26,149 bases of DNA. Origin: a virus. Positions 12,486 through 22,538 of the stretch are shown piece after piece; position 1 is the first letter of the stretch, and each line of letters starts with the position of its first letter. The notes under the pieces are model-generated. The model made no database searches, was not told the origin of the DNA, and saw only the letters and a list, made by a program, of their open reading frames with translations. The position numbers and the translations under genes are program-made. The stretch is from positions 1 to 26,149 of IMG/VR virus record IMGVR_UViG_3300031276_000011; one strand, 5' to 3'.

Positions 12486-12502
12486 TTAAGTCCTCCTAGA
12501 GT

Positions 12503-13318
12503 TCAATTACTTGCCTTATCTTGTTCTCTAGCAAATTTCATTCTTTCTGTAGGGTTCATCGCTGCCAATTGTTCCTGAGAATATTTCCCAGATGGTTTAC
12601 CTGGTCTTGCTCCACTTCCTGGTGGTAAATCATTCATGACATGATGACTATTCCTATCTAATTTAATCCAACGTCCGAATAATTCTTTCGGGGTACCTTC
12701 AACAGTTTCTGGTTGTCCCCTATCATCTTCAAGAACTAACTTAACTCTTGCTTCAAATTCATTCGTTGGTTTACCTTCACTATCAACTATTTCTGAGGGT
12801 TTCGCTTTCCCTTCAGCTTCAAATAATATCGCAACTTGATTTGGATTACAAAGCTTAACATCTCCAAAAGATGATAATATATCATTTTTGATGATTGATG
12901 TTTCAAATCTTCCTCTCCAAGTGTTAGCCTCGTCAATGGCATTTTTAGCTTTCTTCTCGTGTTCTGAAATAACTTTCTTAGCATTTTCTTGAGCACGTTC
13001 TTCAGCAGTCATACTCGCCTGGCGAAGTTTCTCAACTTCTTCTCTGACAACGCTTAAATCTGCGTTCTCTTCCTCTAATTTAGCCATAATAGGTTTAAAT
13101 TGACTTTCTGTTTCACTTCTAGTCTTAGAGATAATATGCCCAAAAAGAGAATCTAATCCAGCAGGAACCTTTACTTTCTGTTGCGTTACTGGATCAACTA
13201 TTTCTACAAACTTTTGTGCTGGTGTATCTCCACTTGAGTTATCACCTGAATTATCACCACCACCTCCAGAACCATCATCTGGCCCAAAAAACTGTCTAAA
13301 TTTGATACCTAATTTCAT
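12503..13318 (-). CDS. Capsid scaffolding protein
   Basis: A 271-aa protein between portal and capsid genes. A Gly/Ser/Asp-rich disordered N-terminus (about 12-35) precedes a region with a strong coiled coil at about 80-140 (LEEENADLSVVREEVEKLRQ ... EEHAKK type heptads). A basic, helical C-terminus with the pattern NPTERMKFAREQDK follows. That layout (acidic linker, coiled coil, basic helix-turn-helix tail binding the capsid) is typical for internal scaffolds. No protease motif is visible, so no maturation protease is suggested here. Confidence 0.75.
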   Translation of the reverse strand: MKLGIKFRQFFGPDDGSGGGGDNSGDNSSGDTPAQKFVEIVDPVTQQKVKVPAGLDSLFGHIISKTRSETESQFKPIMAKLEEENADLSVVREEVEKLRQASMTAEERAQENAKKVISEHEKKAKNAIDEANTWRGRFETSIIKNDILSSFGDVKLCNPNQVAILFEAEGKAKPSEIVDSEGKPTNEFEARVKLVLEDDRGQPETVEGTPKELFGRWIKLDRNSHHVMNDLPPGSGARPGKPSGKYSQEQLAAMNPTERMKFAREQDKASN

Positions 13319-13332
13319 TACTCGCTCCTTAC

Positions 13333-14805
13333 TTACACTGGAATATTTTGATCTTGTGATTGATTCTCTGTTGCTTTAGTACCGGATTTATATTTTTCAG
13401 AAGTTTTCTCAACTGCGAACCCTCCACCGATGTTCTTTTCTATATCTGCATATATTTTATCGAGTTTGTCTTGATCAATATAATTAGTTAATAATTTCTT
13501 AACTAAGATATTCAAGACATTAACTCTCAATTCTTTAACTGGTTGTACTAATAATTCAGTAAGCATTGTAACTTCTGTTTCTAAATCTTCGTTACTAAAT
13601 GCTGTTGTATAATCAGAAGACATTTTTGCGTCTTTTTTCCCTTCCCAGGCAGCAATAGTTTTAAAGCACCAATCTTCTGTTTTACTCATCATCATTGCTC
13701 CTGAAACAAGGAGCGTCTTTGTTTTTTCAAAATCTATTTTTTTTGCAGCACCTGACTTTACAAATTCTTTCGTTTCGTCAGTACTTAATCCTATCTTTTT
13801 AAGTACTTCTGCCATATAAAAAATTATAGCTTTTAAAAACGGATCTATTTCTGATAAATTTGCACCTATAAATGATGGTTGTGTACTAAAATCTCCTTGA
13901 TAAGGTAAGACAGATAATGCTCCTACACCTCCAGCTGTTAAAGCATCTGGTACTGTTCCGTCTTTTGATGGATAAGCTAACATTTTAAAAGTTCCTGACG
14001 CTAACATTTCATCCATATAACTCATATTATTATATATTAATTTAGATATCATAGCAATATCTTCACAAATTGTTTCACCTACGAAATCATTATTGTCATC
14101 TCTCCAGCTTACAAATTTAAATGGGACATAACCGACGGAATGTGACTTTTCTTCACTAACAGTTATAGCACCTCTCACTCCTTTCCTTTCGTAAATTTTA
14201 TATGTGTCTCTTGTCCATAACGTGTATTTTATTATTAATACTCCTTCAGCTAATGGGTTATCATTACTAAAATACGAATCATCGAGTAAAACCCAATTTA
14301 ACTCACCATCATCATTATTTATAGAAAAATCTCTTATTTTAAATGGGAGATACAGTGTTGCATATGGATTTATATTGTTATCTCTTCTGTCTTTTTCTGT
14401 CTTAATAATTTTTCTATCAAAATTAGGAGAATCTATTAAAATTCCGCAAGTGAACATAAAAGAATATGCAGAAACAGTTCTCATGAACTCATCTATCGTT
14501 TTCCCTTTAGCGAAATCTTTCCTTATATATTCAAAATCAGAATGAATATTCCTGGTGGGTCTATTAAGATACAATAATCCACTCATCATATCTACAATAG
14601 GACTTACTTGATTGAAATAAACTGCTCTTCTTTTCCTAGCATTGAAGCTTGACGTACTTTCTTTAGGGTATTTAATTAAATAATTACCCTTCTGGAATAA
14701 GACACCACCGACATAGGACTCAAAAATTAATGTCCAATTCTCTAACTTTTCTTTTAATTCAATATTTCTTCTTTTAAAAATAATCTCATTAGCTGTCGCT
14801 GACAT
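13333..14805 (-). CDS. Portal protein (DUF4055-like)
   Basis: A 490-aa protein after the terminase. The segment FNARKRRAVYFNQVSPIVDM and the following GLLYLNRP match the portal-like DUF4055 pattern 'Y..Rk..a.l.N...pivd...g.lF...P'. Later blocks include GILIDSPN, EGVLIIKYTLWTRD and VPFKFVSWRDDNN, and a C-terminal helical region with NVLNILVKKLL. A dodecameric ring of this protein occupies one capsid vertex. The ATG at 14805 is 3 nt from GAGAGAG. Position between TerL and scaffold agrees. Confidence 0.8.
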   Translation of the reverse strand: MSATANEIIFKRRNIELKEKLENWTLIFESYVGGVLFQKGNYLIKYPKESTSSFNARKRRAVYFNQVSPIVDMMSGLLYLNRPTRNIHSDFEYIRKDFAKGKTIDEFMRTVSAYSFMFTCGILIDSPNFDRKIIKTEKDRRDNNINPYATLYLPFKIRDFSINNDDGELNWVLLDDSYFSNDNPLAEGVLIIKYTLWTRDTYKIYERKGVRGAITVSEEKSHSVGYVPFKFVSWRDDNNDFVGETICEDIAMISKLIYNNMSYMDEMLASGTFKMLAYPSKDGTVPDALTAGGVGALSVLPYQGDFSTQPSFIGANLSEIDPFLKAIIFYMAEVLKKIGLSTDETKEFVKSGAAKKIDFEKTKTLLVSGAMMMSKTEDWCFKTIAAWEGKKDAKMSSDYTTAFSNEDLETEVTMLTELLVQPVKELRVNVLNILVKKLLTNYIDQDKLDKIYADIEKNIGGGFAVEKTSEKYKSGTKATENQSQDQNIPV

Positions 14806-14825
14806 ATCATCTCTCTCAAAAGTTT

Positions 14826-14867
14826 GCCCCCTTTATCGCCAGGAGGCGTAGCGAAAGCCCCTTATCG
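14826..14867. repeat. GC-rich patch with near-direct repeat upstream of portal
   Basis: The AT-rich window has a distinct GC-rich stretch here. GCCCCCTTTATCG (14826-14838) and GCCCCTTATCG (14857-14867) are near-identical, separated by CCAGGAGGCGTAGCGAAA. It lies in the 190-nt gap between TerL and portal and ends about 20 nt before the portal start. No protein can be assigned. It may be a binding site or imported repeat. Confidence 0.4.
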
Positions 14868-14922
14868 TGGTAGCATCCGAAATACAATAAACAAGTAAGA
14901 GCAAGTTACCTGACAATATAAA

Positions 14923-14961
14923 TTAAGACTAATAAAATTGCAAGAACTTTATTAGTCTTAA
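14923..14961. terminator. 14-bp AT-rich hairpin after TerL
   Basis: Arms 14923-14936 and 14948-14961 are perfectly complementary (TTAAGACTAATAAA on the plus strand) around an 11-nt loop. It lies about 35 nt beyond the TerL stop in the transcription direction and is followed on the minus strand by ATTTATATT. The stem is AT-rich, so it is either a weak terminator or an mRNA processing/stability element. A weak promoter-like TTGCAA (14943-14938), 17-nt spacer, TATATT (14920-14915) overlaps it. Confidence 0.4.
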
Positions 14962-14994
14962 CGAATAAAGTTAATCTTAACGAATAAAATTAAT
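14957..14994. repeat. 19-bp tandem repeat just past TerL stop
   Basis: Two adjacent 19-bp units, CTTAACGAATAAAGTTAAT (14957-14975) and CTTAACGAATAAAATTAAT (14976-14994), differ at one base and are followed by a partial third copy (CTTAAT). They begin right after the TerL stop codon (14998-14996) and run into the hairpin. Function unknown; possible protein-binding iterons or slippage product. Confidence 0.6.
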
Positions 14995-14995
14995 C

Positions 14996-17089
14996 TTAAT
15001 AACATTCTTCATAACGTTGAAATTTAAAATGAGGTTGTCTAAAATATTCTATTCCCATTTGAACTGCATCGGGGAAATCATCATTCCCGTAAACAGGATA
15101 AAATACTATTTGATTCATTGCTTCGGGGTATCTATCTACGTAGTCATCCATAAATCTTGTATGTCCTGAATATAATTCTGGTTGAATTGATATTATCCTC
15201 TCATGTTTATTCGTGTTCGAGCCATGATGGACAGTTTCTATGTTAACATGCCAATTTATATTTGCGTGGGCCTTAATTAAAGCGTCTTCTAATAAAAACG
15301 CATTGTTATCTTCGAATAACATAGTTCTACATCCATATGATTTATTAACTGCAGCTATCCTATGCACCATTAATGTTATCTCTATTTTCTCATCAATAGC
15401 ATCAATAAATGTCATTTCATCTTCATAATTGTGTATCCACCAAACAGCAGGATAATCATTACTTGTTTTCCCTTTACTCGGATCGAATACACATAATAAT
15501 TGACCTCTTGTAAGATCAACTTGTTCCATTCTAACAAAAGTAAGTTTCTTCAGATCAAAAGTTTGCATACCTTCTGCTAGAGGGTTATTTACATACTGAC
15601 AATTTTTAGATGCATATCCCCAAACAACATAATTCCCTGTTGTTGTTTGCATTGAATAAACTATTTCATTCCCATCTGGTTCGATCTTAACTACTTTATC
15701 AAACATCCCTCCAAGCCATCTACAATTAAGTAAATCATCAAACGATTGCGTATAATGACAATCAATAACTCTAAGTAAATCCCTTCCTACTTTAGCTGGA
15801 GTGTATGTCTGATAACTATCTTTATTTAATCTTCCATTATACCATTTATGATCAGGAGTACATCTTATAACACGACCACTTTCTAAAGTAACTTTTACAA
15901 CATCTGCTTTTCTGCTTCTTATTTGTAATACTTCCGTAACTGCTAATTTAGATTTATTTTTTAACCCTTCACCATGAGTAAATCCAATTATTTTATCTCC
16001 GATCTTCATATCTTTTATTTGCTTAGTAGTAAAATCACTCATTAATACTGGAGCTTCACCTGGGTTACAGCTGAAAAATATATCTGAAATGCCTACCTTT
16101 ATTCCCGCAATCTTTTCATCTGTCATGAATTCAGGATAATTTGTCTTGCCATCTTTATTGTAAATTGACTCGACTTCTATATCCCATTTTAAATTAGCCG
16201 GTAATTTTTTATTTGTTTCAAAAATATGATGGCATAAGTCCTTCATATGCCATCGAGTACCGATATAAAATATTGTCTCAAAAACAATATTATCTCTCGT
16301 AGAGAAAAATGGAACTAATAATGGTGACAAACTATCAAACCATCGTACTTTCTGGTCCCTAGTTGCCTGACTATCTCGATCATTTTGATCGAGAGCATCG
16401 TCGGAGATAATAACGTTGGGATGAATACCTACTGTACTACCACCAGCAGTCCTTAAGATTAAAGAAAATCCTTTTCCCGATCTACCATCTATATTAAATA
16501 CATCAGATGTATTTTTTGCTTTTTCGTCCTTATTAATATTAAAAATTAACGAGTAAAGAGTATCACCCTTTGATGAACCTAAAAATCTATCTATTGAATC
16601 CGATACCTCGTTTAATAATAATGCATTAGCAGATGTATAAAAAATACGAATCTGTGTGTCCATACATCCCCATAACCAAAGAATAAGTCCTATACCATAC
16701 ATTGTGGATTTAAAAGTACCCCTCGGCTTAAGTCTCATAATACGTTTTTTATTATTCTTTATAGCAGCCTGTAAATCATCAGCCCACCTTTTATGAGTTT
16801 GTTCTGTCAATAAATCGAATTTAAGCACATACTTAGCGAAAAAGAAAAAATCATTGATACACCGTTCAACAACAATTGCAGATAATGTATCACGACTCGT
16901 TTGATCTAAAGTCTTTCCTTCATCTTCAAGGTCTTTCTCTAAAAGAATTAATGCTTTTGTGGCTCTATCAGATTTTATTGCTTTCTCAGGATCAATCCCC
17001 TGGGCTATTCGTTCCTTTTTCTCCTCCCATCGTTTTTTCCTGTTCGTTTTCTGCTCTTCCGTCAACGTCAAATATTCTGAAATCTCCAT
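14996..17089 (-). CDS. terL: Terminase large subunit precursor with in-frame intein
   Basis: A 697-aa precursor, ATP-driven DNA packaging motor and nuclease. The ATPase part has a Walker A-like KPRGTFKST (121-129), a Walker B-like NVIISDDALD (225-234) and the coupling motif region FYIGTRWHMKDL (274-285). The RNase H-like nuclease begins at LLCVFDPSKG (D536), with LFEDNNAFLLEDAL (591-604) and DDFPDAVQMGI (670-680) carrying the other acidic residues. Between the two domains an intein (C341-N496) interrupts FFS/CQYVNNP. Removing 156 residues gives a 541-aa enzyme, a normal TerL length. The start overlaps TerS by 98 nt and has an AGAAGG SD. Confidence 0.9.
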   Translation of the reverse strand: MEISEYLTLTEEQKTNRKKRWEEKKERIAQGIDPEKAIKSDRATKALILLEKDLEDEGKTLDQTSRDTLSAIVVERCINDFFFFAKYVLKFDLLTEQTHKRWADDLQAAIKNNKKRIMRLKPRGTFKSTMYGIGLILWLWGCMDTQIRIFYTSANALLLNEVSDSIDRFLGSSKGDTLYSLIFNINKDEKAKNTSDVFNIDGRSGKGFSLILRTAGGSTVGIHPNVIISDDALDQNDRDSQATRDQKVRWFDSLSPLLVPFFSTRDNIVFETIFYIGTRWHMKDLCHHIFETNKKLPANLKWDIEVESIYNKDGKTNYPEFMTDEKIAGIKVGISDIFFSCNPGEAPVLMSDFTTKQIKDMKIGDKIIGFTHGEGLKNKSKLAVTEVLQIRSRKADVVKVTLESGRVIRCTPDHKWYNGRLNKDSYQTYTPAKVGRDLLRVIDCHYTQSFDDLLNCRWLGGMFDKVVKIEPDGNEIVYSMQTTTGNYVVWGYASKNCQYVNNPLAEGMQTFDLKKLTFVRMEQVDLTRGQLLCVFDPSKGKTSNDYPAVWWIHNYEDEMTFIDAIDEKIEITLMVHRIAAVNKSYGCRTMLFEDNNAFLLEDALIKAHANINWHVNIETVHHGSNTNKHERIISIQPELYSGHTRFMDDYVDRYPEAMNQIVFYPVYGNDDFPDAVQMGIEYFRQPHFKFQRYEECY
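15602..16069 (-). other. Mini-intein within TerL (156 aa)
   Basis: Residues 341-496 of the precursor have Hint-domain features. Block A: Cys1, then VLMSDFTTKQIKDMKIGDKI. Block B: GRVIRCTPDHKW, with the TxxH motif at T411/H414. Blocks F/G: EIVYSMQTTTGNYVVWGYAS, then K495, N496 and the +1 residue C497. The flanking exteins (FFS and CQYVNNP) form a continuous terminase motif. No LAGLIDADG or HNH homing-endonuclease region is present, so it should splice but not move by itself. The penultimate residue is Lys instead of the usual His. Confidence 0.85.
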
Positions 17090-17447
17090 TTTTTGCCTTC
17101 TCTCTTAAATCGTCTATTCCCATTTCATCGAGTATATTAACTATAGTTATTACAGCAGCACGTTTGTCTGTATTAGTAATTTGTATTGGGCCACCTCCAA
17201 TACCACCTATTTCTCTTATTTTTTTATCGGGTAAATACTTCTTAAGAATTATCTCAGCACACCTTAATCTTACCCAAGGTTCTTTATCTTTCAGGCCATC
17301 TTTAATAACTTTAAAAGCATCCTCAACTGAATCATCAAGAAGCTTTAATACCGTAGAATAATTTTTTAATTGTAAGGCTTTCGGTGTTCTACCTACACCA
17401 GGTAAACAACTACCTGGTCCTTTAATTATTTCGGTTTTTTTAGACAT
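16992..17447 (-). CDS. terS: Terminase small subunit (putative)
   Basis: A 151-aa protein, first gene of the structural operon and directly before TerL, overlapping it by 98 nt. It has a helical core (TVLKLLDDSVEDAFKVIKDG, then EPWVRLRCAEIILKKYLPDK) similar to the helical repeat of small terminases and DUF-type packaging regulators, and a Gly/Ser and acidic C-terminus (GRAENEQEKTMGGEKGT). In the family it recognises the packaging start and activates TerL. Position is stronger evidence than sequence. SD is weak (GCGAG). Confidence 0.6.
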   Translation of the reverse strand: MSKKTEIIKGPGSCLPGVGRTPKALQLKNYSTVLKLLDDSVEDAFKVIKDGLKDKEPWVRLRCAEIILKKYLPDKKIREIGGIGGGPIQITNTDKRAAVITIVNILDEMGIDDLREKAKNGDFRIFDVDGRAENEQEKTMGGEKGTNSPGD

Positions 17448-17460
17448 TTATTAACTCGCT

Positions 17461-17494
17461 TTTATACAATATGTTTATAAACATATTGTATAAA
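17461..17494. promoter_or_regulatory. 34-bp perfect palindrome (putative operator)
   Basis: Positions 17461-17477 are the exact reverse complement of 17478-17494; each half reads TTTATACAATATGTTTA. It covers the -10 box and start region of the predicted structural promoter. One arm is continued by a tandem 13-bp repeat (ATAAACATATTGT at 17477-17489 and 17490-17502, then a partial copy). The shape suits a dimeric repressor or activator and would block or position RNA polymerase. It is AT-rich with no T tail, so it is unlikely to be a terminator. Confidence 0.7.
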
Positions 17495-17513
17495 CATATT
17501 GTATAAATGTCAA
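17485..17513 (-). promoter_or_regulatory. Sigma70-type promoter of the structural operon
   Basis: On the minus strand, TTGACA (17513-17508) is a perfect -35, followed by a 17-nt spacer and TACAAT (17490-17485) as a five-of-six -10. The predicted start is near 17478, about 30 nt before the TerS ATG. It follows directly after the terminator of the upstream operon and overlaps the palindrome. Confidence 0.7.
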
Positions 17514-17574: not shown

Positions 17575-18399
17575 CTATTTAAATAAATTTTCTATAATTT
17601 TAACTATTTTAATTGAAATAAGATTATTAGACTCTATCTCTCCATTAATAATCTTTACAAAATTATTAATGGAGAAAAATAAATTATTCTTTTCGTCAAA
17701 TTTTTTTCTAATTTTTAAGACTCCCATTTGATAAACTTTAACGGGATACTGATTATTGTAATCATAAATTAATTTCCCCCTTGTTCCCTTAATAACAAAT
17801 AGTTTATCTTTATACCCGCTATCTATGCTAACATAAAGTGAACCAAATATTTTTCCGAAATATTTTATCAATCCTGTTCTTGTGATTTTATTCTTATCTA
17901 ATTTTACATTGATAAATTTTAATTCTTTTAAATCGACAAATAAGGATAACATCGATAACTGATGACAACTTAACTGCCAAAAAACATGTTGATCCGTAAA
18001 TCTACCATGTTGTCTTGTAAACCCATTTATTTCGAAAATCTTACCTACACGATCAACCATTTTTACCATTTCTAATCGAGAAGGTGCAGTCATTTCCGTG
18101 TAATCAGTATACAACTTTACATTATATTTTTTAGATAAGTTGTATAACTTCAAAGCTTTTTTATAAGAAGTCGCAAGAGGTTTCTCACAAAAAACATGTT
18201 TACCTTGTTTAATACATTTTTTAACTATATGGTAATGAGTCTCTATTGGAGTAGCGATAAAAAATACATCTATGTCTTTAGCTATTTTTTTTATATCAGA
18301 ATCTTTTCTCCCTGTTATAGAAACCAAGTTAAATTTTTCTTTGATGTATGGAATTAATATCTTACCCCAATATCCACATCCAATTAAAGCTGCTCTCAT
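17575..18399 (-). CDS. Gfo/Idh/MocA-type NAD(P)-dependent oxidoreductase
   Basis: A 274-aa enzyme from the ATG at 18399; the GTG at 18417 would add six residues but would begin inside the previous gene. The N-terminal Rossmann fold shows ALIGCGYWGK (GxGxxG), then VFFIATPIETHYHIVKKCI and GKHVFCEKPLA, with the EKP motif (72-74) that holds cofactor and catalytic Lys. The later HVFWQLSCHQLSML region fits the substrate domain. Family members oxidise or reduce sugars, often UDP-sugars in O-antigen pathways. It is shorter than the usual 330 or so residues. The ATGA overlap with the upstream methyltransferase suggests coupled translation. Confidence 0.75.
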   Translation of the reverse strand: MRAALIGCGYWGKILIPYIKEKFNLVSITGRKDSDIKKIAKDIDVFFIATPIETHYHIVKKCIKQGKHVFCEKPLATSYKKALKLYNLSKKYNVKLYTDYTEMTAPSRLEMVKMVDRVGKIFEINGFTRQHGRFTDQHVFWQLSCHQLSMLSLFVDLKELKFINVKLDKNKITRTGLIKYFGKIFGSLYVSIDSGYKDKLFVIKGTRGKLIYDYNNQYPVKVYQMGVLKIRKKFDEKNNLFFSINNFVKIINGEIESNNLISIKIVKIIENLFK

Positions 18400-18947
18400 T
18401 TTATAATACCCCACCACATATTTGGTAGATTATTGTGACCTTCTGTCTTATCCATGACATTATCTTTAATCATCTTCTTAACTGATCCCCACCCCCAATC
18501 ATGGAAAACTACAATACCACCTTTTCTCATTAGAGAATAATACAAAGACCAATCTTGACCAACTCCTTTCACAGTATGATCTCCATCAACAAAAAGAAAA
18601 TCTATTTTAATATCAACATTTACAAAATAACGATATGCATTATAACTGTAATCTACAATAGGCTTAATATCTTTCTTATACTTTTTCGTGTTCTCCTTAA
18701 AATTTTCAAACAAAGTTAAAGAATTATTAGGATCTGGCCTCATCTTAACATCAGACAACCAAATATCAATACAATATAAAATATCACTTTCGCTCAATGC
18801 AGAAGCAATAGCAATAGATGACGCACCCATATATGATCCTATCTCTACACAAACATCACTCTTATTCTTCTTAACAAGTTCATGTAATGTTTCAAGCTCC
18901 TTTTTCGTTACACAAGTACTTATGCCTTCTATTTCATTCAAATACAT
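18396..18947 (-). CDS. Class I SAM methyltransferase (Methyltransf_24 type)
   Basis: A 183-aa protein. The start is placed at ATG 18947, preceded by GTGAGGG; the ATG at 18974 has no SD. Motif I is VEIGSYMGASSIA (about 34-46), and the metal/catalytic-site motif is FLFVDGDHTVKG (about 117-128), followed by LMRKGGIVVFHDW. This family (CmcI-like and sugar or hydroxyl O-methyltransferases) often sits in polysaccharide loci. It overlaps the radical SAM gene by 14 nt and ends in ATGA with the oxidoreductase. The substrate is not apparent; a sugar is inferred from the neighbours. Confidence 0.75.
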   Translation of the reverse strand: MYLNEIEGISTCVTKKELETLHELVKKNKSDVCVEIGSYMGASSIAIASALSESDILYCIDIWLSDVKMRPDPNNSLTLFENFKENTKKYKKDIKPIVDYSYNAYRYFVNVDIKIDFLFVDGDHTVKGVGQDWSLYYSLMRKGGIVVFHDWGWGSVKKMIKDNVMDKTEGHNNLPNMWWGIIK

Positions 18948-20082
18948 TGTTACCCTCACCATTAAAATATTCATTTATTTCTAATGCCATTCTATTCCCA
19001 CGCAATCCATGCTTAAAACAATCACTTTTACACTTAACAGGATTATTTTGTATCTCCCAACATTGATCTTTAAAAACACTTAATTCTGATGATACGACAC
19101 CTCTTCTAAGATGTTTTGCTGTGGGTGCTGCGACAGCAGAACATGGATAAACATATCCATCTGCACCTAACGTTATTTGGAAAAACCCATAATAACAAGT
19201 ATCAAAATTAAACCTATCTATATCAGTATAATATGAATCATTATAAAATATATATGGATGGCAGCTTTTGTCTTTTGACACTAAATGTTTTGTATTGTTT
19301 TTTACTATTTCAGAAAGCATATTTTCAGTATTTTTCTTATATTCTCTTACTGAATCAAAATGTTTATTATAATAATCATAAGGTATAGAAAATCTAAGAG
19401 AATCTATTCCACACATTTTTGCAAAAGAAGTAATAAACTCAAATTCACTAAGATCACATGTTACTTCTGAAACCAAATAAACAACTCTAATCGCATGACT
19501 TTCTTTGTTAGATTTATCCCTGATATTTGTCATCTTTTCAATTGCAGATAATATTTTCCAGAAATTATCTGCAGGGCTTTTCTTTAACGATGACCACGAC
19601 TTGCCTGAACCAGCATCAAGACTTATAGAAATATAGTCAGTTTTATCAGTACTTATGTCGTGCACATTAGTTAGAAATCTTTGTTTTTCTTCAAGATCAA
19701 GAAGATATGTGCCATTCGTATGTAACCCAAAATGATTCCCAAACTTTTTTACTATATCAAGATAAGGAAAAAGATATGGATTAGCAGTCGGTTCTGTATA
19801 CGCTCCACCAAAAATAGAATATGGTATTTTTCCTTTTAAGTTTTCAAGAAGTTTTAAACCTTCAGATTCCCATTTCCCTAATGATTTTTTGTATAGCGTA
19901 GAAAAACAATGTTCACATCCTAAATTACATGTAATGTTCCTGTCTGACGGAAGATGTATCTCTAATTGTTTTGGATATATAAATGGTTTGTCCTTACCTG
20001 GAATAAAAATCTTTTCTGTGTTTTTCATATATTTATTTAATTGTTTTAAATATTGATATTCAAGTATCCTTTTATCTTCCAT
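18934..20082 (-). CDS. Radical SAM enzyme with SPASM-like C-terminus
   Basis: A 382-aa protein. CNLGCEHC (C52, C56, C59) is the CxxxCxxC that holds the 4Fe-4S cluster which cleaves SAM. FGGAYTEP (91-98) is GGE-like, HTNGT (121-125) and ISLDAG (153-158) are typical barrel motifs. The C-terminus has five more Cys (C296, C314, C341, C351, C355) with GADGYVYPC, as in SPASM-type auxiliary clusters. It begins right after the glycosyltransferase stop (TAAATG). Such enzymes do radical modifications of peptides, sugars or metabolites. Rare in phage structural regions; substrate unknown. Confidence 0.8.
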   Translation of the reverse strand: MEDKRILEYQYLKQLNKYMKNTEKIFIPGKDKPFIYPKQLEIHLPSDRNITCNLGCEHCFSTLYKKSLGKWESEGLKLLENLKGKIPYSIFGGAYTEPTANPYLFPYLDIVKKFGNHFGLHTNGTYLLDLEEKQRFLTNVHDISTDKTDYISISLDAGSGKSWSSLKKSPADNFWKILSAIEKMTNIRDKSNKESHAIRVVYLVSEVTCDLSEFEFITSFAKMCGIDSLRFSIPYDYYNKHFDSVREYKKNTENMLSEIVKNNTKHLVSKDKSCHPYIFYNDSYYTDIDRFNFDTCYYGFFQITLGADGYVYPCSAVAAPTAKHLRRGVVSSELSVFKDQCWEIQNNPVKCKSDCFKHGLRGNRMALEINEYFNGEGNNVFE

Positions 20083-20940
20083 TTATTTTATTTCCATCAA
20101 TTCAGGATTTATTGGATCGTAAATAAGTTTCTTACTCTTTTTATTATTTATATTCTCTTCTTTATCCATGTTAGATGGCCATATCCTTTCATTTATTATT
20201 CTATTCCAAGAATTTTCAAAAAATAACGGATCTGCTTTTATTCGGTCCATTCTCCAATCATTGAATTTATTTGCTTGTTTAATATTTTTGTCTATAAATT
20301 GTTTTTTTGATCTATATTGAAAATGTGCATAATATGCTATATCTGGATCTATCAAAATTTGCTTCATATGTAAGCTAATTTGTCCATATTTCATATCAGC
20401 AATATGATGTAATCCCTGAACATAATACATATTTTTATTGAACTTCCCAATTGATTTAGTCCATTCCATATAATTATTTCTACATTGCATTTCTAAATAA
20501 AATGGAAGACTTAATTCATCTTTTTGAGAATAATAGTTTGTCCATCTAAATAACAAGGATACAAATTTATATTGATCATACTGTTTTATAAAATCATAAA
20601 TATTATTATGTTTCCTTAAAATTAAAAACTCATCAGCATCGGTCCCCACTATCCATTTAAATCCATCATCTTGTGCTGCATCAGTCAATACCTTTAAGTA
20701 ATCACCATTAATCGGATTCAGTCCAAGACCTTCTTTATCGTGACGTAATAAATTGAACGTAGCATCAGATAATTTAGTTTTAACAGAATCTAATATACTT
20801 AGTAACAATTCACTAGGAAGATGTAACATAATATAAAAATTTCTGATACCGATATTATAATAATATATAATATTATTTTCTATAATATCTGTATCATCTC
20901 TAAGTTTTAAGATTAATGCTATTTTTATTTTTTCATGCAT
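20083..20940 (-). CDS. GT-A glycosyltransferase (family 2/Glyco_tranf_2_4-like)
   Basis: A 285-aa protein with the nucleotide-sugar/metal motif WIVGTDADEFL, D101-A-D103-E104. It begins KIALILKLRDDTDIIENNI, typical of the sub-family that starts with a conserved 'l..kn E...i..wl..h...G...', and continues YYNIGIRNFYIML. A second conserved region is YVQGLHHIADM. The family transfers a sugar from a nucleotide donor. It overlaps the methyltransferase end by 16 nt. Not membrane-bound. Confidence 0.75.
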   Translation of the reverse strand: MHEKIKIALILKLRDDTDIIENNIIYYYNIGIRNFYIMLHLPSELLLSILDSVKTKLSDATFNLLRHDKEGLGLNPINGDYLKVLTDAAQDDGFKWIVGTDADEFLILRKHNNIYDFIKQYDQYKFVSLLFRWTNYYSQKDELSLPFYLEMQCRNNYMEWTKSIGKFNKNMYYVQGLHHIADMKYGQISLHMKQILIDPDIAYYAHFQYRSKKQFIDKNIKQANKFNDWRMDRIKADPLFFENSWNRIINERIWPSNMDKEENINNKKSKKLIYDPINPELMEIK

Positions 20941-21512
20941 ACGATAGTGTGTCCATTACCTACTTTATCATCAGTTTCATGTTTTTCTATAATTTCCCAA
21001 TCAATTAGTTTTTGTATATTGCACCATTCTATAATATCAATCATTAATTGTAAAGTAAATATCCAAATATGACAATAGTCATCTGTGAGTGGTAAGGGGT
21101 GTTTATACTGTTCTATAAATGATTCTAATATTGAAACAGGTTTATCCTTATCTTTAGGATCAGCATCTCTTTTAGGAAAAATCATAAAAATAACTCCATC
21201 TTTTTTTAAAGAACGATCCCACTCAATAAATGCTTTTATAGGATTCGGTACATGTTCTATAACGTGACTTGATAAAACATAGTCAATGCTGCTATCTTCT
21301 ATAGGTATATTTTCAGCATTACCAAATAAATCTATAACGGTTGGCTCTTCGCCCATAAGTCTTTGTGATTGATTCCAAAATTCAAGTTTTTCTTCTGGAG
21401 AAATCATGAGACAATCTTCAAGTCCGAAAGAGTTATGAGATGATGGGCCTAACTCGATACCTTTCCCTTTACAATATTTATGCGCTAATTCTGACTCTTT
21501 AAATTTCATCAT
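20925..21512 (-). CDS. Class I SAM methyltransferase (type 11-like)
   Basis: A 195-aa protein. Motif I is KGIELGPSSHN (17-27), motif IV-like is IDYVLSSHVIEHVPNP (76-91), then SLKKDGVIFMIFPKRD. This arrangement with 'IELG' and 'SSHVIEH' fits the type 11 methyltransferases that occur beside glycosyltransferases. An AAGGA SD precedes adjacent ATGs at 21512 and 21509. The downstream glycosyltransferase starts inside its last codons. A sugar, lipid or small metabolite substrate is possible. Confidence 0.75.
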   Translation of the reverse strand: MMKFKESELAHKYCKGKGIELGPSSHNSFGLEDCLMISPEEKLEFWNQSQRLMGEEPTVIDLFGNAENIPIEDSSIDYVLSSHVIEHVPNPIKAFIEWDRSLKKDGVIFMIFPKRDADPKDKDKPVSILESFIEQYKHPLPLTDDYCHIWIFTLQLMIDIIEWCNIQKLIDWEIIEKHETDDKVGNGHTIVCMKK

Positions 21513-21524
21513 GTTATTCCTTAT

Positions 21525-22538
21525 TTAAAAATTTTTATCCATTAAAGATTTTATAACTTCTATTCTTTTTTTATTGATAGTACTTAAAAGCAAATTTTCA
21601 GATATATATTCAAAAGATTCATCATAATTCCTGTCCCTAAATTTTCTATCTTTTAAGAGTTTCTCCAAATAATAACCAAAACTTTCTTTATTTTCATGAT
21701 TATAATTAATAATTCCTGGTTTATTAAATTCAGGTAGCCCAAGTGGAGCAATAGCTGCAGCCCCAGAAAAAGTAGCCTCTAGCCATGAACAATTAGACTT
21801 TGAAAGATTAAACTCATTAACTACAAGAGGAATAATCTGTACAGATGGGGTGAGTTTTCTTATATACGAATGGTAAGAAACAATATCCGTTTCAGGAAGA
21901 CTGAAGACACGTTTAATGTAATCAGTAATATACCACATGCTGTTATCCGCTCGACCACCAATAAAAACCCATGCCCATATTTCCTCATATTTTTTCGCTA
22001 TCTCAAATATTCTATCAGAACAAGATAGTAAGTCTGCCCGATGTGTATCTGACCCTCTCCAATATATTGTATTTGATTTTTCATTAATTTTTTTAAATGG
22101 GAAATTATAGTCGTTAAAAGAATTTTCTATAACTACAATGTTATCGTTTAAATGTTTAAAAGATTTTTTTAAAGCATCTGTTGCTACGGTGACTACATCT
22201 GCAGCTTTTATGCATTCCTTCATCATATCAAACACTTCTTTACCAGAGAAAAACTTATGGTTAGGATTATCTTTAGGAATAACGAATAAATTATCGTCGA
22301 TATCAACCCAAACAGGAATATTAAAATTTTTCGCTCTTTTCATTAAATCAAGATATACTTGAGTCTGTGGTCTTGCAAAAAGGATGATATCAGCATCAAT
22401 TAAAGCAGTCCAAGAAGTAACTTTCATATACTCAACCGATATTGAAGGATCTAATTTAGATAATTTTGACAATGGGCCTATACTTCTATAATAAGAACAT
22501 GCACTTTCTGGTGCTGCATCACAAATTTTAATCTTCAT
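21525..22538 (-). CDS. GT-B glycosyltransferase
   Basis: A 337-aa protein with two Rossmann-like halves. N-terminal half: KICDAAPESACSYYRSIGPL and VWVDIDDNLF (76-85), a pattern common in glycosyltransferases of polysaccharide clusters and phages. C-terminal half: IYWRGSDTHRADL (158-170), WVFIGG, and the donor-binding region FNLSKSNCSWLEATFSGAAA (243-262) followed by APLGLPEF. It is the second gene of the cassette, starting 10 nt after the zinc-ribbon gene stop, with a GGGG SD. It likely transfers a sugar from a nucleotide donor; acceptor unknown. Confidence 0.75.
   Translation of the reverse strand: MKIKICDAAPESACSYYRSIGPLSKLSKLDPSISVEYMKVTSWTALIDADIILFARPQTQVYLDLMKRAKNFNIPVWVDIDDNLFVIPKDNPNHKFFSGKEVFDMMKECIKAADVVTVATDALKKSFKHLNDNIVVIENSFNDYNFPFKKINEKSNTIYWRGSDTHRADLLSCSDRIFEIAKKYEEIWAWVFIGGRADNSMWYITDYIKRVFSLPETDIVSYHSYIRKLTPSVQIIPLVVNEFNLSKSNCSWLEATFSGAAAIAPLGLPEFNKPGIINYNHENKESFGYYLEKLLKDRKFRDRNYDESFEYISENLLLSTINKKRIEVIKSLMDKNF

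Follow-up and report, generated by a model that had tools for sequence, protein, structure and literature searches.

The terL locus and its neighborhood

The window, i.e., the whole stretch of DNA that was analyzed, is a contig of 26 kb (26,149 nucleotides) from an uncultivated tailed virus. On its minus strand, an open reading frame at 14996..17089 (stop codon included) remains free of stops through 697 aa and matches the terminase large subunit (TerL) families phrog_38 and phrog_5573. The two matches fall on separate parts of the protein. The first 340 aa (16070..17089), which end in DIFFS, constitute the ATPase part and match phrog_38 with an E-value of 7e-48; the last 201 aa (14999..15601) begin with the CQYVNNP linker, contain the nuclease part and match phrog_5573 with an E-value of 9e-10. 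An alignment with other TerLs supports both assignments. These parts are the N- and C-exteins of an intervening segment of 156 aa (precursor residues 341-496; 15602..16069), and all the features detailed below lie on the same minus strand. The GC content is 31.8% in the insert and 34.1% and 32.8% in the exteins and is uninformative.

Downstream of terL are genes for a portal protein (phrog_145), a scaffold-like protein and the major head protein. Upstream, a 151-aa ORF (16992-17447) occupies the place of the small terminase and returned neither a PHROG nor a Pfam match; since the two reading frames share 98 bases at the annotated beginning of terL, the actual start of terL may sit further in. 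Beside the head genes, positions 17575-22538 hold a cluster of genes for the modification of sugars or metabolites, coding for a GFO/IDH-type oxidoreductase, a Methyltransf_24 methyltransferase, a radical SAM protein and two glycosyltransferases. A blastn search with distant-match settings, using positions 12500-17500 against phages, gave zero matches.

A predicted class 1 mini-intein between the ATPase and nuclease parts

The insert has the sequence layout CNPGEAPVLMSD ... TPDHKW ... VYSMQTTTGNYVVWGYASKN, followed directly by the C-extein CQYVNNP. Its first residue, Cys1 (precursor C341; 16067..16069), is the predicted first nucleophile and is invariant in 88/88 viral relatives. Block B reads T71-P-D-H74-K-W76 (15842..15859), with the Thr shared by 86, the His by all and the Trp by 87 of these 88 relatives. 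Blocks F and G (VYSMQTTTGNYVVWGYASKN; 15602..15661) end in a penultimate Lys155 (precursor K495, codon AAA; 15605..15607) and the predicted cyclizing residue Asn156 (precursor N496; 15602..15604), which is again invariant (88/88). The junction GYASKN496/C497 then supplies the +1 Cys (15599..15601) as the second nucleophile, a position also occupied by Cys in the intein-free TerL of ANMV-1, a virus of ANME archaea. Between the splicing blocks, the motif WLGGMFD (15698..15718) aligns with WLGGMFDGEG... of the inteins from the collected loci L128 and L011, and appears to be a remnant of the first LAGLIDADG motif. Three canonical residues, namely the block F Asp, the block F His and the penultimate His, are all missing.

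The profile evidence is consistent with these observations and exceeds what chance would give. The TIGR01445 intein_Nterm model scores 27.8 bits against a curated cut-off of 24.5, and the Pfam Intein_splicing model gives an E-value of 6e-7, yet stays under its gathering score; the Pfam Hint match is likewise below its cut-off. A phmmer search with the intein against PDB sequences returned no significant match, and a fold search was needed. For this, an AlphaFold2 model was built of the intein extended by 10 residues at either end, from 22 sequences, all of them from the window or the collected loci (mean pLDDT 81). The model matches the Ssp DnaB mini-intein (Foldseek E-value 1e-8; VIA Z 17.8, rmsd 2.9 over 141 residues) and, among other solved inteins, Npu DnaE and gp41-1. 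A model of the whole precursor displays an ATPase part and a nuclease part on either side of a Hint domain, which is bounded at its junctions by two low-confidence stretches (335-339 and 498-507); the model's pLDDT of 77 and pTM of 0.52 leave the relative placement of the domains unsure.

Taken together, Cys1, the block B T-x-x-H signature (Thr71, His74), the C-terminal Asn followed by a +1 Cys, the modeled Hint fold and the existence of intein-free relatives make it highly probable that the element is a class 1 mini-intein in the ATPase-nuclease linker of a viral large terminase. The penultimate His, which is common in class 1 inteins without defining them, is replaced by Lys155. The mini-intein designation follows from the length of 156 aa and the lack of a homing endonuclease domain, of which only WLGGMFD is left. 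The first-pass annotation had placed a 156-aa intein with these residues at exactly this position, and translation, the PHROG matches, TIGR01445 and the Hint-fold model all bear out its coordinates, residue numbers and the reported absence of an endonuclease, save that a scar of the latter persists; the 541-aa product that it gave for the spliced TerL is likewise the computed length (697 minus 156 aa).

Other categories do not accommodate the element. It differs from class 3 inteins in possessing Cys1 and a Ser at block F position 4, with Trp alone remaining of the WCT motif; from class 2 inteins (KlbA type, with Ala at position 1) in beginning with Cys1; and from bacterial intein-like domains (BIL), which have no +1 nucleophile, in possessing a +1 Cys.

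Intein-free and intein-bearing TerLs at the insertion site

The insertion site corresponds to a conserved motif of the ATPase-nuclease linker, F-[SAN]/[CAS]-Q-Y-x-[NQ]-x-P. The TerL of ANMV-1 aligns through it as LLFA/CNYLNRP, and 80/80 TerLs collected from viral contigs cross it without an insert when aligned with the extein, typical readings being YIFS/CQYMNNP, AEFS/AQYLNNP and FQWN/AQYQQEP; as this set ranks uninterrupted alignments first, it illustrates the plentiful presence of intein-free relatives and gives no intein frequency. The possibility that related TerLs carry the segment as a normal domain, which had been named as grounds for rejecting the intein, was thus looked for, and the uninterrupted ANMV-1 and collected TerLs show otherwise.

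Inteins at the same TerL site are present in L127 (154 aa, followed by CQYMNNP), L128, L011, L133, L140, L154, L156, L242 and ctLwi270. More generally, related inteins were found in many viral TerLs either directly before [CS]-[QFL]-Y or one to two residues upstream. A single-sequence search with the full TerL against viral contigs returned only L002, an unrelated intein. Several of the same-site inteins, namely those of ctLwi270 (MW202554) and of the IMG/VR loci L127, L128, L011, L133 and L242, also share with the window intein its clade and the combination of a penultimate Lys or Arg with a +1 Cys. The endonuclease region is kept in ctLwi270, L128, L011 and L133, whereas it is gone in L127 and L242, just as in the window. 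Among these same-site TerLs, ctLwi270 is the only annotated record, and the intein itself is unannotated there. The annotation of the ctLwi270 TerL (L004 3902-6439) splits it into two ORFs separated by a third, small one; the first part holds the same-site intein, with the end GYLSRN/CQQMNNP, and the second the nuclease part.

A mainly viral intein clade with divergent active-site residues

Profile-guided scans yielded 88 distinct viral inteins, plus two from actinobacteria that form a cellular outgroup, with L037-L044 left out as different intein families. Since these two actinobacterial inteins were the only ones found in the species-genome collection, the clade is, by this search, mainly viral. 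Its host proteins comprise phrog_38-type TerLs, portal proteins, other terminases and a helicase. Judged by the C-extein motif, 54/88 of the inteins are in the TerL linker; family searches identified the host protein as TerL in the window, L127, L128, L130 and L138, and extein alignment did so in L011, L131, L133, L140, L154 and L156.

Across the clade, all 88 viral inteins share Cys1, the block B His and the C-terminal Asn, and nearly all have the block B Thr and the Trp at His+2. At block F position 4, 84/88 have Ala, Ser or Gly and none has Asp; where the block F His would stand, 85/88 have Gly. Thus, the usual helper residues are missing throughout the clade and not only in the window intein. 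The same holds for the penultimate position, which among the 88 viral inteins is Lys in 42, Ser in 36, Arg in 6, Ala in 2, and His and Gln in 1 each; the two cellular relatives have His. Lys or Arg is hence the commonest state (48/88) and also occurs in portal and helicase inteins. This rules out a Lys peculiar to the window intein, and the first-pass suggestion that this residue marks the element as special does not hold. The Lys is not confined to the clade either, as the intein of L037 (3001 onward), which belongs to a different family, has the C-terminus GIKVKN/C along with a block F His.

Some members present further features. For the mycobacteriophage clade member Shifa gp238, 60/190 phage records with the gene hold most of it plus the intein, and the other records listed are mostly two-piece matches with 57% coverage and ~97% identity, i.e., empty sites; this coexistence of intein-bearing and empty-site records points to recent mobility of this intein. 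The portal precursor of L033 (a 1197-aa ORF with its start upstream of 1780) has an apparent second intein-like C-terminus, FALDGNILTSN/S, and seemingly contains two inteins within one protein. In Virus Rctr197k (L005 3001-4060), a helicase-like protein labeled as radical SAM protein-like contains an intein that combines traits of class 1 with traits of class 3: it has Cys1, a Trp following block B, a Cys at block F position 4, and a Thr just ahead of the penultimate residue, which is Lys.

Several inteins from the literature offer a comparison. Mycobacteriophage class 1 inteins with Gly, Lys or Ser in place of the penultimate His have been described (Kelley et al. 2016; PMC5050341). The closest parallel is Pio gp94, one of the portal inteins of cluster C1 mycobacteriophages (PORT; PMC5050341), which falls in the same tree clade, has a penultimate Lys and a +1 Cys, and ends in VVSMQTTTGNYTAWGVASKN/C, near-identical to the end of the window intein. 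It differs in residing in a portal protein, in its 268 aa with a LAGLIDADG-type motif, and in being 44% identical over the splicing domain. As in the window, the mycobacteriophage inteins TerL1-a to -e, TerL6-f and Pham3880-g lie in large terminases or terminase-like proteins (PMC5050341); of these seven, five were tested, Pham3880-g (ScottMcG gp245) among them, and all five spliced (PMC5050341). Their sites are all reported in the ATPase domain, with Pham3880-g at its C-terminal end, in contrast to the ATPase-nuclease linker site of the window; for Pham3880-g, this comparison is one of reported location. Further, several of the mycobacteriophage TerL inteins are of class 3 (PMC5050341), unlike the class 1 intein of the window.

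Probable loss of the endonuclease

Most relatives in the clade are ~235-290 aa long and have one LAGLIDADG-type motif (e.g., WLGGMFDGEG). The window intein departs from it after WLGGMFD and rejoins the full-length relatives at KVVKIEPDG, where they read D-KVV or D-EVI. In L128 and L011, a GAT codon flanks both sides of the stretch that is missing from the window intein, an arrangement that fits a loss of the endonuclease by deletion between short repeats. L128, which has kept the endonuclease, is the tree sister of the window intein (support 98/90). On the clade tree, the endonuclease-free state needs at least five changes. That the four TerL mini-inteins (window, L127, L130 and L242) arose only once is rejected (AU p 0.012), but a shared origin of the window and L127 inteins alone is not (p 0.145). 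The ancestor would thus have been an endonuclease-bearing mobile element from which an internal deletion removed the endonuclease. The intein may then have persisted because TerL is needed, so that splicing must keep working.

Proposed splicing route and its alternatives

By analogy with characterized inteins, the most likely course is the ordinary class 1 route of Cys1 thioester formation, transfer to Cys+1, Asn156 cyclization and ligation. Upon folding of the precursor, Cys1 would attack the Ser340-Cys1 peptide bond with help from Thr71 and His74 of block B. The N-extein would then be transferred to Cys+1, and cyclization of Asn156 would free the intein, yielding a TerL of 541 aa in which the linker reads F-S-C-Q-Y-V-N-N-P again. 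Lys155 occupies the canonical place of the penultimate His. In the absence of that His, the block F His and the block F Asp, our guess is that Asn cyclization is helped by the Hint geometry itself, with a contribution from the Lys155/Cys+1 pair. Splicing without the canonical penultimate His is known in the literature for cyanobacterial DnaE and other inteins and is likewise predicted here; those inteins have Ser or Ala and belong to a different lineage, whereas the window intein has Lys. Splicing in E. coli is on record for mycobacteriophage TerL inteins, which sit at different sites, and for a phage intein whose penultimate residue is Gly (PMC5050341).

The unspliced insert would probably disturb the joint action of the ATPase and nuclease, and splicing should therefore precede packaging. 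A stronger version of this idea, advanced in the first-pass annotation as splicing that could time TerL activity, is that the intein acts as a timer or sensor that keeps TerL inactive until late in infection, with Lys155 setting the rate. TerL is indeed a late and essential protein whose two domains are separated by the insert, and other inteins in the literature respond to redox state or zinc. Against this, the Lys is common in the clade whatever the host protein, the sequence has no sign of regulation, and the RDF intein with Gly, the only phage intein whose non-His penultimate residue has been put to the test, splices fast in its native form and slowly when given His (PMC5050341), so that a missing penultimate His does not imply slow splicing. 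We therefore regard such timing as unsupported and improbable.

Marginally less probable still is that the intein has decayed and either lost splicing or retained cleavage alone, leaving TerL inactive or working as two pieces. The lost helper residues and endonuclease would agree with decay, but the helpers are missing clade-wide, including in members within other essential virion genes, and all nucleophiles, the whole reading frame and both halves of TerL are intact. Very unlikely, in our estimate, is a class 3-like route in which the first attack comes from a block F residue instead of Cys1. Its appeal stems from the Trp at block B His+2, as in class 3 inteins (87/88), a Ser or Thr preceding the penultimate residue (86/88), and a Cys at block F position 4 in two relatives, including Rctr197k. 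However, class 3 inteins have no position-1 nucleophile and require the block F Cys (PMC5050341), whereas the clade has an invariant Cys1, and its block F position 4 holds Ser in the window intein and Ala, Ser or Gly in nearly all members. Finally, taking the insert for an ordinary accessory domain of the TerLs in this lineage might account for related segments at the site, or within two residues of it, in many viral TerLs, but this reading is contradicted by the intein-free relatives, the complete splice-junction residues and the recurrence of the clade in portal and helicase proteins, to the point of being negligible.

A possible pairing of the penultimate and +1 residues

Returning to the class 1 route, the clade hints at a relationship between the penultimate residue and the second nucleophile. 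The pairs with a +1 Cys are Lys-Cys (39), Arg-Cys (6), Ser-Cys (4) and Ala-Cys (1); those with a +1 Ser are Ser-Ser (32), Lys-Ser (2), Gln-Ser, Ala-Ser and His-Ser (1 each), with a lone Lys-Thr (1). A basic penultimate residue thus accompanies 45/50 +1 Cys residues versus 2/37 +1 Ser residues. Both pairings even occur at one TerL site, with SKN/CAGQLQQRP in L166 and SSN/SAGQLQQRP in L165. Taking relatedness into account leaves about four independent switches on well-supported branches, 3.9 in the same direction and 0.1 in the opposite one, with a sign test p of 0.125, a test that with about four switches cannot reach 0.05. The sample itself derives from pattern-based retrieval and is not random. 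Hence, the association is strong in raw counts and only suggestive once the tree is considered.

We tentatively raise the possibility, which we hold to be somewhat doubtful though worth entertaining, that the two residues change together (Lys/Arg with Cys, Ser with Ser) because the basic residue is functionally matched to the thiol nucleophile. If so, Lys or Arg, in replacing the canonical His, might for example lower the pKa of the thiol or stabilize the branched thioester. We found no description of such a pairing as a means of tuning splicing in the accessible literature.

While phage class 1 inteins with a penultimate Lys were known before, and the window intein adds one more to them, what appeared to be an oddity of one terminase becomes the property of a clade: within a widespread family of viral inteins, Lys is a common penultimate residue. 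This family recurs in the TerL linker, is found in portal proteins and helicases as well, and appears to have lost its endonuclease several times. Natural inteins of 154-164 aa with such a divergent active site may serve protein engineering, and the contrast between Lys/Arg with a +1 Cys and Ser with a +1 Ser offers a testable question as to how Asn cyclization proceeds without the usual His.
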